Source of the DNA: an uncultured Mediterraneibacter sp.
Lineage (GTDB): Bacteria; Bacillota; Clostridia; Lachnospirales; Lachnospiraceae
Direction of reading: 5' to 3'
Length of the DNA stretch: 39,359 nt
NCBI GenBank assembly: GCA_944384505.1
Contig: CALWTQ010000033.1
Location: 1-39,359 of the forward strand
Shown piece after piece: positions 1 through 39,359 of the stretch; the stretch's first letter is position 1; every line of letters starts with the position of its first letter. Position numbers and translations under genes: made by a program. The notes below the pieces were generated by a model, which worked only from the letters and a program-made list of their open reading frames with translations, was not told the DNA's origin and searched no databases.

Positions 1-145
1 TTTCTGTACGTAGGCTCAAGAGCTTTGCTACACCACTTCCTTCACCCATACCATTACTGGATACCGGCTTGTGGTTCACTACACTTGGCGGTAAATACCC
101 GTGACTGGACTTTCACCAGTAAGATTAGTGCCATGCTCGGCACAC
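1..145 (-). mobile_element. Group II intron, 5' end (domain I), truncated by window edge
   Basis: Read on the minus strand, the segment starts GTGTG at 145, the usual 5' boundary form of group II introns (GUGYG). It continues with GGTGAAAGTCC paired to flanking CTGG/CCAG and, further in, GGTGAAGGAAG, all typical of group II domain I. The remainder, including any reverse transcriptase, lies outside the window. The 5' exon is the repeat at 146-766: the intron sits just after a GC-rich inverted repeat followed by TTTGCATT, which is how bacterial class C introns choose stem-loop targets. No protein is encoded in the visible part. Seen: boundary and motifs. Inferred: class C. The open frame crossing this region on the plus strand is spurious. 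Confidence 0.72.
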
Positions 146-766
146 AATGCAAAGCGGCGCTCCGGGCAACTCGCTGCGCTCAGACAATCCCTGCGCGCCA
201 CTTAACAACATCTCTCCGCCCTTCAAGATTTTCAGCGGATTCCTCCAAAGTCACATCTCCCGGCTGCCCCCTTTCCCAGAAAGTATACTCAAACCACCCG
301 CTCCGCTTCCTGCGCATTTCCAGACGGAAGTGTTATTGCCCTAAACAGGCTGTAAAGCACAACTGGCGCGGCTTGTGGGCTTTCGACTGCGAAAGTCTTC
401 CGGCCGCGCCTGCTTCTCGCAGCAGCTATATATTCACTGACTGCCGGCCTGAAAAAGCCCAGAAAACAGCCCTATTTCAAGAAAAATTCTGCGGGGATGG
501 AGGATGGCGACGGGCGCCTTCGGAAGGGGATTAGGGAAAGTTAAAGCTGCGGTGACAGACGTTAGGGCTGACGGTGGAATTGTCTGAGCGGATGCGAGTT
601 GTCCACCGTCAGCCCTTGCATTTAGTCTGTCGCCGCAGCTTTTAGTTTCCCTTATCCCCTGGAGCGAAGCCCAGAGCCGTCCTCCATCCCCGCAGAATAC
701 GTCTTTGGAATAGTCGCTGTTTTCGGACGTTTTGCAAAAGGACGTTAGTGAACTTTATAGCTGAAC
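146..766 (+). repeat. Giant hairpin dispersed repeat, copy A (left arm cut off by intron)
   Basis: About 620 bases that recur at 36825-37442 with roughly 85 percent identity and in inverted form at 39039-39359. Visible parts: the loop and right arm of hairpin 1 (about 146-345), a small GC-rich hairpin (about 365-410, GGCGCGGC with GCCGCGCC) and hairpin 2 (about 487-704, arms of about 95 bases, base pair ATTCTGCGGGG with CCCCGCAGAAT). It ends in TATAGCTGAAC, as copy B does. The open frames inside shift relative to copy B, so they are unlikely to be coding. The right end lies 6 bases past the stop of the cysteine hydrolase. Function unknown; it could be a MITE-like element or a structured RNA. 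Confidence 0.85.
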
Positions 767-5318: not shown

Positions 5319-5469
5319 ATAAACAGCCGCTGGCAGGACATCAGAAGGCGCAGAAGCAAAGCCGGATCTCCGACACACATCTCTGATATGACGGATCTCC
5401 GAAGACGTTTTGATCCCCCCGGATCAACGTACAGCCAATTACTCGTGGCCTGGAATCATTTCCTGTACA

Positions 5470-5635
5470 GCAGCAGGCAGGTCTCCTGGCTCTCAGTTCC
5501 CCGTACAGTTCCGCCTTCCCGGTCTCCCAGTGGCATATCCGGATCTGTACTCCCTGATCACAGTGACGAGTTCGCACAGGACTTTCACCTGTTTCCCTTT
5601 TCACCAGACCCTATGGGTCTGACACCTTCCGCTTT
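5470..5635 (-). ncRNA. Cobalamin riboswitch (aptamer)
   Basis: Reading the minus strand, the order of conserved blocks is that of the B12 element: GGTG near 5630, GGGAA then GGTGAAAGTCC at about 5583-5600, GCCACTGGG (the B12 box) at 5525-5535, GGGAAGGC, and GAGCCAGGAGACCTGCC at about 5478-5494. Downstream come peripheral hairpins and the intrinsic terminator. It should repress the DUF4430 and ECF genes when adenosylcobalamin or a related corrinoid is plentiful. Confidence 0.93.
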
Positions 5636-5654
5636 CCGTATTCAACTGTATTCC

Positions 5655-27745: not shown

Positions 27746-28315
27746 CTATATGTTGTTATTCTTTACTTTCCGTACTGTAAATATTGTCACTGTTCCGATT
27801 AACGAGAGCATTATAAGAGCGATCCAGAGTCCGGTATTTCCATTGTCGCCGGTCTGCGGGCTTCCGGCCTGAGCAGTACTGCTTCCGGCTGTTCCATTCG
27901 CTCCGGCTGTGCCGTTCGTCCCGGACGTTCCATTCGCTCCGGCTGTGCCGTTCGTCCCGGCCGCTCCATTTGTTCCGGCCGCGCTGTCCGTTCCGGCTGA
28001 ACTGTTATTATCGCCGGTTGTGCCGCCGTCTGTAACCGGCGGTTCAGCTGCAGCAGGGATCTCCATAGTCAGCATGCTGCTCATATTGCCCGCGGCATCT
28101 CTGGCAATAATATAAATACTCTTAGCGCCTTCAGTAAGCCCGCTAAGGGATATCGTGTTCTCCCCTGCCGTACAGGTACTTCCGGTTCCCGAAGCGTCAA
28201 GATCCGGAAGCGTCCCCTGCTCGGCAACGGCATAATAATATGTACCATCCTCACTGCTGGTAAAGCTTACAACGGCCTCAGCGTTGCTGATACGGCTTAC
28301 ACTGCCCGCGGTCAC
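27746..28315 (-). CDS. C-terminal part of a wall-anchored SGNH protein, apparently split by frameshift
   Basis: A 189-residue frame that starts with GTG inside the end of the SGNH gene, in another frame. It begins TAGSVSRISNAEAVVSFTSSEDGTYYYAV, which is the middle of a bacterial Ig/FN3-like domain whose usual first strand (DTTAPVL-) is found at the very end of the upstream frame. One missing base restores a single frame there. After the domain come repeated (A/T)G(T/A)NG(T/A) hexapeptides, a SPQTGD sorting motif, a hydrophobic helix and the basic tail RKVKNNNI, a sortase anchor. No ribosome site precedes the GTG. It is most likely the 3' half of one gene. Sequencing error and real decay cannot be separated here. 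Confidence 0.8.
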   Translation of the reverse strand: MTAGSVSRISNAEAVVSFTSSEDGTYYYAVAEQGTLPDLDASGTGSTCTAGENTISLSGLTEGAKSIYIIARDAAGNMSSMLTMEIPAAAEPPVTDGGTTGDNNSSAGTDSAAGTNGAAGTNGTAGANGTSGTNGTAGANGTAGSSTAQAGSPQTGDNGNTGLWIALIMLSLIGTVTIFTVRKVKNNNI

Positions 28316-33522: not shown

Positions 33523-33996
33523 TTATTTCTTGTTTTTCTTCACCGGCTCACCCGTAAACGGGTCGATGTACTCTACTAATGACATCTGATCATACTCTAA
33601 ATCTTCTTTCAGTTGATTTTGAATATACGCCTTAATTGCAGCTGTGTTCTTTCCTACTGTATCTACATAATATCCACGGCACCAGAAATGTCTATTTCCA
33701 TACTTGTATTTCAAATTCGCATGCTTTTCAAATATCATCAGCGAACTTTTTCCTTTTAAGTACCCTACAATTTCTGATACGGAATATTTTGGCGGAATCT
33801 TTACCAACATATGGATATGGTCACTACAACACTCCGCCTCAACAATTTCTATCCCTTTTCTTCTGCATAATGTTCCCAGTATTTGTCCCACATCTGCTTT
33901 TATATCTTTGTAGATTACCTGCCGGCGATATTTTGGTGCAAAAACGATGTGATACTTGCATTCCCATTTTGTATGGGCTAAACTATTTACGTCCAT
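33523..33996 (-). CDS. tnpA: IS200/IS605 family transposase TnpA
   Basis: A 157-residue Y1 HUH transposase, normal size for the IS200 group. It begins AHTKWECKYHIVFAPKYRRQVIY, contains the HUH motif HIH at residues 60-62 (CSDHIHMLV) and the nucleophile Tyr 124 in AAIKAYIQNQ. It cuts and joins single-stranded DNA at hairpin ends. No TnpB is present. The gene appears intact. AGGAGG precedes ATG 33996, but this ribosome site is buried in a hairpin (34006-34061), as in other IS200 elements where translation is kept low. Confidence 0.95.
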   Translation of the reverse strand: MDVNSLAHTKWECKYHIVFAPKYRRQVIYKDIKADVGQILGTLCRRKGIEIVEAECCSDHIHMLVKIPPKYSVSEIVGYLKGKSSLMIFEKHANLKYKYGNRHFWCRGYYVDTVGKNTAAIKAYIQNQLKEDLEYDQMSLVEYIDPFTGEPVKKNKK

Positions 33997-36525: not shown

Positions 36526-36617
36526 AATCCAAACCCTCTCATTACAATAAGATATGTCAGTGTGCAGTCTTTCAGTCTGTTATATCTATTCCAGGCTCTT
36601 CACTTCATCTAACAGAA

Positions 36618-36649
36618 GATAGTTTAAACTAACACATCTCATTTGTCAA
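36618..36649 (-). promoter_or_regulatory. feoA promoter with overlapping DtxR-type palindrome
   Basis: On the minus strand TTGACA (36644-36649) and TAAACT (36621-36626) are 17 bases apart. The perfect palindrome TAGTTTAAACTA (36620-36631) covers the -10 box, so a bound repressor would block it. Likely iron- or manganese-responsive. Confidence 0.6.
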
Positions 36650-36677
36650 TCCTTTTTAATAATTTTTTTCAGTCCAA

Positions 36678-37442
36678 CAGCTATTTAGCGCAATAACAGT
36701 TCCCGACGAAATGTGTCCGGAAGCGGAGCGGATAGTTTGCGATACGTATTCTGTGAAAGGGGACAGCCGTGCGATGTTCCGTTCCAGAATCCGGAAAATC
36801 TAGCAGGCCGAAGAGATGTTTAAATACAAAGCGGCGCTCCGGGCAACTCGCTCCGCTCAGACAATCCCTGCGCGCCGCTTAACAACATCTCTCCGCCCTA
36901 AAGATTTTCAGCGGATTCCTCCAAAGTCACATCTCCCGGCTGCCCCCTTCCCCAGAAAGTATTCTCAAACCATCCGCTCCGCTTCCTTCGCGTTCCCTGT
37001 CGGAATGTCATTGCCCAAATAGGCTGAAACGCACAACTGGCGCGGCTTGTAGGCTTTCGGCTGTGAAAGCTTTCCGGCCGCGCCTGCTTCTCGCAGCATC
37101 TATATATTCACTGACTCCCGGTTTGAAAAAGCCCAGAAAACAGCCCCATTTCAAGAAAAATTCTGCGGAGATGAAGGATGGCGATGGATGACTTCGGAAG
37201 GGTATTAGTGAAGCTTAGAGTTCCAGCGAGGGACGTTAGGGCTGACGGTGGAATTGTCTGAGCGCAAGCGAGTTGTCCACCGTCAGTCCTTGCATTTAGT
37301 CCGTCACTGGAACTCTTAGTTTCACTTATATCCCTGGAGCGGAATCCAGAGCTATCCTTCATCCCCGCAGAATACGTCTCAGAAATAGCCTCTGTTTTCG
37401 GACGTTTTGCCTGCGGAAGTTAGTGAACTTTATAGCTGAACC
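36678..37442 (+). repeat. Giant hairpin dispersed repeat, copy B (complete)
   Basis: The only full copy, about 765 bases in the gap between feoA and the DtxR gene. Hairpin 1: arms of about 140 bases (36680-36818 and 36882-37023) with strong blocks such as GGAAGCGGAGCGGAT / ATCCGCTCCGCTTCC and GAGATGTT / AACATCTC. A small GC hairpin lies at about 37040-37085. Hairpin 2: arms of about 100 bases (37155-37252 and 37276-37372). The ends CAGCTAT and ATAGCTG are also complementary. No conserved frame is found when compared with copy A. Whether it is transcribed is unknown. It could be an inert MITE-like element, a DNA cruciform site or a structured RNA. Confidence 0.85.
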
Positions 37443-37544
37443 GCCACATTTATACTTTTTTTAGAATTGTCTTTGGTGTTCCCCCAGGTTTTATGATATA
37501 CTTGTATAGAATATTGAAATGACTAATTTGATCGAGGTGAAACT

Positions 37545-37904
37545 ATGCATACAAACGAATCTTCTGAAAACTATCTGGAAACTATTCTTATTCTCAGTCA
37601 GCGGCTTCCAGTGGTTCGCTCAGTGGACATTGCTACAGAGCTGGATTTTAAGAAATCAAGTGTCAGCGTAGCGATGAAAAAATTGAGGGAAAGCGGGCAT
37701 ATCATTGTATCCCCGGAAGGATATATTACGCTTACCGAGTCCGGAAAAGAAATTGCGGACTGCATTTATGAACGTCACACTCTTCTCTCCAGCTGGCTCA
37801 CCCGTCTGGGGGTTGATCCGAAAACAGCCGTAGAAGATGCCTGCCGGATTGAGCATGTTATAAGTTCTGAAAGTTTTGAAGCAATTAAAAAGCACATTAA
37901 ATAA
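37545..37904 (+). CDS. DtxR/MntR family metal-dependent regulator
   Basis: A 119-residue winged-helix protein: ESSENYLETILILSQRLPVVRSVDIATELDFKKSSVSVAMKKLRESGHIIVSPEGYITLTESGKEIADCIYERHTLLSSWLTRLGVDPKTAVEDACRIEHVISSESFEAIKKHI. The DNA-binding helix KKSSVSVAMKKLRESG and the metal-site region (ERHTLLSSWL, EDACRIEHVIS) are those of iron/manganese-dependent repressors. It lacks the C-terminal SH3/FeoA domain, so it is of the short MntR/IdeR type. It is divergent from feoAB, separated by repeat copy B, and is the likely binder of the TTAGT-type palindromes. ATG 37545 has GAGGTGA upstream. Confidence 0.92.
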   Translation: MHTNESSENYLETILILSQRLPVVRSVDIATELDFKKSSVSVAMKKLRESGHIIVSPEGYITLTESGKEIADCIYERHTLLSSWLTRLGVDPKTAVEDACRIEHVISSESFEAIKKHIK

Positions 37905-39038: not shown

Positions 39039-39359
39039 GTTCAGCTATAAAGTTCACTAATGTCTGGATGCAAAACGTTCGAAAACAGGGGCTGTTTTCT
39101 GGGCTTTTCAAGCCGGAAGTTAATGAATATATAGCTGTTACAAACAGCACGCGCGGCCGGAAGACTTTCGCAGCTGAAAGCCCACAAGCCGCGCCAATTG
39201 TCGCTTCGGCCTGTTTAGACAATAACACTTCCGTCTGGAAATACGCAGGAAGCGGAGCGGATGGTTTGAGTATACTTTCTGGGGAAGGGGACAGCCGGGA
39301 GATGTGACTTTGGAGGAATCCGCTGAAAATCTTTAGGGCGGAGAGATGTTGTTAAGCGG
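39039..39359 (-). repeat. Giant hairpin dispersed repeat, copy C (inverted, hairpin 2 missing, cut by window end)
   Basis: Inverted relative to copies A and B. It begins with GTTCAGCTATAAAGTTCACT, the reverse of their right end, and runs to the window edge inside hairpin 1. Between GAAAACAG and CTGTTTTCTGGGC the 215-base hairpin 2 is absent and only GGG remains. The small GC hairpin (about 39148-39197) and one arm of hairpin 1 are kept. The open frame here is not conserved. Confidence 0.82.

Follow-up and report, generated by a model that had tools for sequence, protein, structure and literature searches.

A high-copy repeat of two giant hairpins in Mediterraneibacter, possibly spreading as a folded single strand

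What kind of element is a DNA repeat with two very long stems, in which the sequence of both arms changes while the pairing is kept? The question is raised by the window, the whole stretch of 39,359 nucleotides that was analysed, whose own genome (G000) comprises 3.95 Mb in 141 contigs and belongs to the genus Mediterraneibacter (family Lachnospiraceae). The repeat is real, abundant and mobile, and it is undescribed in the literature searched. It is dispersed in high copy number, its complete copy in the window is absent from that site in relatives, it holds no conserved open reading frame (ORF), and its stems covary, with covariation between distant and not between close copies. On balance, the repeat is probably a non-autonomous mobile element of the MITE/REPIN type whose spread depends on a folded single strand, a reading held with slightly better than even confidence.

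The window contains one complete copy and two incomplete ones, and their parts are given below. R1 denotes a covariance model of the apical 150 nt of hairpin H2, which combines 13 sequences from five genomes within the genus with 4 from genome G195.

36678..37438, plus strand: copy B, a complete element of 761 bp; bounds common to other G000 copies, element absent at the same site in 28 of 28 loci of relatives
36678..36697, plus strand: left terminal inverted repeat (TIR) CAGCTATTTAGCGCAATAAC; pattern CAGCTATWWAGNNCANTAAC found 140 times forward and 140 times reverse in G000, reversed control 0
37419..37438, minus strand: right TIR, CAGCTATAAAGTTCACTAAC when read on the minus strand; same search for ends in G000
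36678..37026, minus strand: giant hairpin H1, loop strand minus; fold, R1 match at 36924-36777 minus (E = 4e-22), wobble on the minus strand
37039..37084, plus strand: small central hairpin GGCGCGG...CCGCGCC; fold, conserved in other species
37097..37438, plus strand: giant hairpin H2, loop strand plus; fold, R1 match at 37194-37344 plus (E = 1e-38)
146..763, plus strand: copy A, left part missing, interrupted at 146 in the tip of H1; R1 matches at 520-669 plus (5e-41) and 204-146 minus (3e-9)
1..145, minus strand: probable 5' part of a group II intron inside the H1 tip of copy A; match to RF02001 (group-II-D1D4-3) at 63-1 minus
39042..39359, minus strand: third copy, truncated where the contig ends and lacking the H2 core

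The original prediction had placed two long-stem copies at 146-766 and 36678-37442. Both are present, with 88% identity over 146-766, and their right bounds were revised to 763 in copy A and 37438 in copy B, which begins with CAGCTATTTAG and ends with CTTTATAGCTG. The paired segments named at that time were recovered in place: GCTGCGG (546-552) with CCGCAGC (633-639), and AGTTCCAG (37219-37226) with CTGGAACT (37307-37314). Positions 1-145 are foreign to copy A and are probably the 5' part of a group II intron inserted beside the apical hairpin of H1; the RF02001 match (24 bits, E = 0.003) is below the gathering threshold (32) and is cut by the contig end. An IS200-like insertion in another locus (L174) lies at nearly the same spot of the H1 tip, and because the two nearly coincide, this tip may be an insertion hot spot.

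Folded as RNA, copy B reaches -365 kcal/mol, compared with a mean of -235 kcal/mol for 20 shuffles (z = -17.4); its fold as DNA gives z = -17.8, and that of copy A gives z = -12.2. The H2-derived model R1 also matches H1 on the minus strand, so the element consists of an inverted hairpin, a small hairpin and a hairpin. H1 and H2 are homologous hairpins of ~340 bp, inverted around the small hairpin and closed by imperfect TIRs of ~20 bp. An Rfam search with the element and its hairpins gave nothing above the gathering threshold, and the one match, to a eukaryotic miRNA, was weak (31 of the 168 bits needed). A literature search, mostly outside subscription journals, found no description of these hairpin repeats. 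Both results agree with the earlier view that the repeat is undescribed, and the absence of a conserved frame was likewise borne out: the longest stop-free stretch (87-232 codons) is spread over all six frames among 35 copies. With no conserved ORF in these copies, there is no transposase gene within the element.

The 280 exact ends in G000 (140 in each direction, compared with 0 for the reversed pattern) indicate a large repeat family. Among 45 complete elements of this genome, 34 left and 34 right ends fit the pattern exactly, which leads to an estimate of ~370 ends, roughly 185 copies and ~3% of the genome, contig breaks and collapsed repeats not being allowed for. This set leaves out three pairings of 353 bp, which join internal ends of H1 and are not elements (hence 45 rather than 48). 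The length is 757-771 bp in 35 of the 45 elements and 403-598 bp in the other 10; the short forms are internal deletions with differing end points in which both ends are kept. It is probable that the copies break the short-read assembly of this genome.

Within the genus, exact ends were found in 3 of 58 genomes (280 in G000, 12 in G005, 1 in G021; the other 55 have none), although diverged ends are missed by this pattern. A search of 61 genomes with the full element gave matches in eight, the window's own genome included, all of them in the genus; the copies in G026 are diverged (about 73%) and have the same architecture. With a conserved 20-mer, 37 stretches were found, including single matches in three other MAGs. 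Most of the named relatives found in this way belong to Mediterraneibacter (Ca. M. merdavium, M. vanvlietii, M. stercoripullorum and uncultured MAGs), together with Ruminococcus turbiniformis. A search of phages and plasmids, from which records close to the window's own genome may be missing, gave no match, and no viral contig matched the conserved 20-mer of H1.

The site of copy B was compared with 28 loci of relatives, and no R1 match was found in any of them. Both flanks are found in 25 loci (one flank is missing in three), and none of these 25 matches the element by blastn. The flanks lie 28-158 bp apart in 23 of the 25, compared with 89 bp in the window minus the element, and in the remaining two the flanks enclose other sequence (L124, 304 bp; L125, 574 bp). 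In principle, the absence of copy B from relatives could also represent loss. The flanks of the G000 elements display only a weak lean to AACAGTT, and a target duplication is absent from the 45 elements at every shift from -6 to +7. A TIR-like unit adjoins 8 of 119 ends, compared with 0.4 in shuffles. Among 29 elements with usable flanks, 16 lie at -19 to +24 bp from the 3' end of a neighbouring ORF and none is spanned by an ORF, all ORFs being called mechanically.

The compensatory changes that had been noticed between the two copies are genuine, and the covariation is strong by shuffle and slide tests. In the A1 alignment (17 sequences, 41 pairs), 93.8% of cells pair, compared with 75.2% after shuffling, and 136 cells are double-changed, compared with 41.9 after shuffling (0 of 500 shuffles) and with a maximum of 32 when the pairing is slid. 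In G000 (35 copies, 279 pairs), 53 pairs are represented by two or more Watson-Crick types, each of them seen in two or more copies. The excess of double changes depends on the distance between copies. The 110 copy pairs with 79-82% identity show, per pair, 39.5 single-sided and 20.1 double changes, where independent arms would give 6.8 double changes, whereas the 8 copy pairs with 92-95% identity show 23 single-sided and 0.5 double changes per pair, where 0.6 would be expected; the latter figure comes from little data, since only nine copy pairs exceed 92%. As close copies change their arms independently, residents seem to decay, and we read the pairing as maintained in the copying lineage.

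A pooled count over whole elements (437 G.T, 420 A.C) had suggested no strand preference. This was rejected, because the two hairpins have opposite polarity and the preference becomes visible once they are split. Mismatches common to at least 6 of 35 copies are 4 G.T and 15 A.C in H1 and 11 G.T and 2 A.C in H2 (p = 8e-4). Taken together and read on the loop strands, they amount to 26 G.T to 6 A.C, and unique mismatches lean the same way, though less (41 to 27). When the tips were folded on both strands, the loop strand gave 160 G.T to 21 A.C in H1 (an excess in 35 of 35 elements) and 180 to 34 in H2 (34 of 35). Among 28 genomes, each represented by a single hairpin, 23 have the more stable fold on the loop strand (p = 9e-4); these 28 hairpins hold 107 G.T and 59 A.C, with G.T exceeding A.C in 17 and falling short in 6. 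The lean is only 46 to 34 in 14 hairpins of other genomes, and genome G127 is an exception (19 to 21, no wobble preference). By these comparisons, the strand that carries GTCTGAGCG..GCGAG is the better-pairing one in each hairpin. The G.T excess could partly reflect strand-biased mutation, since unique mismatches lean likewise.

Since one strand pairs better, a folded single strand is what selection appears to see. A cruciform, or symmetric repair between the arms, predicts no strand preference, so a double-stranded cruciform is disfavoured; of the options proposed for the element at the outset, the MITE-like one is supported and the cruciform-forming site is not. The original prediction had also allowed either selection or arm-to-arm repair. 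Because close copies lack an excess of double changes and shared mismatches are strand-specific, selection on the folded single strand during copying is favoured, and ongoing repair in resident copies is not.

Relatives of the hairpins occur well beyond the genus. A gapped pattern of the loop has 163 matches in G000 and also turns up in 4 of the 298 further Lachnospiraceae genomes searched (control 0), and the exact 16-mer loop is present in 9 of 200 genomes, G000 included. Folding of 14 loci from five more genera placed the loop at a hairpin tip in all 14, with 47-125 pairs spanning it, and the stems of these hairpins are unlike those in the window. The covariance-model search of Lachnospiraceae that had been put forward as a check finds the family: with E up to 1e-5, R1 matches 26 of 299 genera, G000 included (10 candidates scored per genome, shortened calibration). 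The loop is carried within three mismatches by 23 of the other 25 genera; it is altered in G188 and not confirmed in G179. In a class-wide draw, R1 matches 8 of 391 genomes, five of them outside Lachnospiraceae, and these matches are weak (36-44 bits), with the loop within two mismatches in all eight loci. By sequence comparison, then, it is the loop and the bulges that are conserved across genera, and not the stems. In one locus of another genus (L285:1171-1583), two hairpins of the family adjoin in inverted orientation, as H1 and H2 do. In G195 (L258, L261-L266), copies that share up to 95% identity at the tip have very different basal stems of ~26 bp, each of which nevertheless pairs almost perfectly. 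The loop also occurs in four viral contigs, where RNA folds of ~320 bases around it gave no giant hairpin; in three of these (L254, L255, L257) it lies inside a similar short sequence (AAGACCCTAGA, the loop, then GATCTT or near).

In a set of 29 genomes that excludes G000, each represented by a single hairpin, 24 have a tip of the form GC-GNA-GC. In G000, a GNA loop caps H1 in 22 of 35 copies, 18 of them with two G-C pairs, and H2 ends in GNA in 9 of 35 and in GNNA in 10 of 35. GNA and GNNA loops with at least two G-C pairs are described, in the part of the source available, as extraordinarily stable DNA mini-hairpins (PMC4686876).

G127, a single-contig genome, holds nine copies, whose long basal stems vary between copies and pair almost fully: 999 pairs are Watson-Crick, 41 are G.T, 26 are A.C, 34 are other and 16 have a gap. 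Across 36 copy pairs, the double differences comprise 829 that are compensated and 102 others, and a further 405 differences are single-sided. Direct repeats of 8 bp border the G127 ends (GTTACNGTT) and match at 8 of 8 positions in five of the nine copies by script. The other four score 6, 4, 3 and 2 of 8, while wrong pairings give a mean of 3.5 and a maximum of 7; in the two that score 3 and 2, the left end was misplaced by the script, and the alignment gives them 8 and 7 matching positions. Target duplications in G127 but not in Mediterraneibacter possibly indicate two modes of insertion or a misjudged end.

No mobilising enzyme was found in G000, its relatives or the other hosts examined. 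Y1 genes of any kind occur in 49 of 58 genomes of the genus, and of nine hairpin-bearing genomes from other genera, four lack a Y1 transposase. A single RAYT-like gene, judged by length and a weak Y1 match, is present in each of G000 and G026. RAYT was rejected as the mobiliser, as these two loci are flanked by unrelated 40-nt REPs of their own, and four further RAYT-like loci of the genus (L164-L167) contain no element of the giant-hairpin family. In L162 (2199-3141) and L163 (1803-2788), the RAYT-like gene lies, by eye, between glyS-like and aminopeptidase-like genes and is flanked by REPs of ~40 nt (GGGGACGTAGTAAAAT), a second, unrelated palindrome family. Autonomous copies were also sought. 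In L175, TIRs 1.4 kb apart enclose a Y1 gene, and this candidate was set aside, as its flanks look like an IS200-like insertion into the repeat; L174 likewise looks like a nested insertion. In the loci examined, and among the first 100 of the 280 G000 ends, one nested IS200 is the only gene found enclosed by a TIR pair 0.8-8 kb apart. No autonomous copy was seen in small contigs of G000 (TIR positions in 20, ORFs in three of them), and in G342 the genes between neighbouring hairpins look, by eye, like housekeeping genes.

These results suggest the following route of spread. A factor supplied in trans would recognise the folded strand by its GNA/GNNA tip, the GTTA bulge against TGCTTTTA and the TTAG internal loops, and it would then copy or move the element. 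Only copies that fold would propagate, and inserted copies would subsequently decay and lose their hairpin cores. We lean slightly towards ssDNA rather than RNA as the folded strand, as most tips belong to the d(GCGNAGC) class of mini-hairpin. This lean is weak, since GNRA-like loops are stable in RNA too and the loop was itself part of the model by which the genomes were found. More tentatively, the repeats may form a separate class of mobile DNA in Clostridia, defined by very long folded ssDNA, an ultra-stable d(GCGNAGC)-type cap and a hairpin-reading enzyme, in which the stem sequence would be free and only the fold, the loop and the bulges would have a heritable function.

Strand-specific wobble and conserved bulges are also RNA-like, and the repeat might be a structured non-coding RNA, its hairpins transcribed outward and the RNA selected, for example as a cofactor of mobilisation or a substrate of RNase III. 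This is doubtful. Promoter-like sites of the type searched show no excess in 36600-37600 (2 compared with 1.5 in shuffles), no fixed orientation to mechanically called ORFs is evident in 25 loci of other genera, and the sense strands of the two hairpins of one element are opposite; the independent arm changes in close copies and the apparent decay of residents also speak against it. A fixed host element, such as a terminator or a chromosome-organising site, would suit the many copies that abut gene ends. However, it is most improbable given the absence of the element from the copy B site in all 28 loci, the restriction of exact ends to three genomes of the genus and, again, the seeming decay of residents.

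The repeat could be an ordinary DDE-type MITE with TIRs and target duplications, its palindrome kept only by correction (template switching or hairpin mismatch repair). The G127 copies fit this, with direct repeats in five of nine copies by script and a sixth on the alignment reading, 829 compensated double changes to 405 single-sided ones, and no wobble preference. Nevertheless, it is rather unlikely for the family, as near-identical G000 copies show no excess of double changes, the loop and bulges are kept across genera while stems are not, and wobble is strand-specific in G000 and most other sets. Prokaryotic MITEs such as QMITE2 and ERIC are characterised, in the portion of the source seen, by TIRs, no ORF, intergenic location and stem-loop formation (PMC10969869). 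The giant-hairpin element shares TIRs, the lack of an ORF, intergenic location and stem-loop formation, and its G127 relatives have direct repeats. It differs in its 761 bp, two giant hairpins and single-strand fold conserved across genera, in the lack of direct repeats in Mediterraneibacter copies, and in that no parent IS was found in the loci examined. REPINs, as parts of PMC3116915 describe them, are non-autonomous, extragenic, inverted palindrome doublets that form within-genome populations and show compensatory stem changes. The element is also a non-autonomous, extragenic inverted palindrome doublet in high copy with compensatory stem changes, and it could be pictured as a very large REPIN that relies on a RAYT (Y1) transposase for its movement. 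This is very unlikely: the two RAYT-like loci examined carry different REPs and show no link to the element, and Y1 is missing from 4 of 9 other hosts. The element also has a conserved loop and bulges and is several times longer than a REPIN. In elements of the IS200/IS605 type, ssDNA hairpins are the recognition signal, there are no TIRs, and the target is a fixed tetranucleotide. Derived palindromic elements (PATE) resemble the Mediterraneibacter copies in the lack of target duplication, but the giant-hairpin element has TIRs, its flanks show no more than the weak AACAGTT lean, and the two IS200-like genes adjoining it look nested.

The repeat offers a natural data set: an estimated ~185 copies in one genome, with dozens of relatives, make selection on the fold separable from neutral decay. 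Although instability is expected of long palindromes, here they occupy an estimated ~3% of the chromosome of this gut bacterium. The loop, common to more than 25 genera, offers a handle for finding the enzyme. If ssDNA is indeed the functional form, single-strand transposition would extend to elements far larger than REPs.

Several minor observations accompany these results. The window also contains an IS200-like (Y1_Tnp) gene at 33523-33996 on the minus strand (Pfam PF01797, E = 3e-42), a cobalamin riboswitch at 5459-5644 on the minus strand, and an array of 18-bp repeats at 27885-28010, which overlaps an ORF at 27746-28315 on the minus strand. In L124 (genome G080), the copy B site is occupied by a different insert of ~200 bp with no match to the element or R1. 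It starts with AACAGTTCAGCC, ends with GGCTAAACTGT and looks self-complementary, and its ends resemble the AACAGTT lean of the flanks and the ends of the G127 copies.
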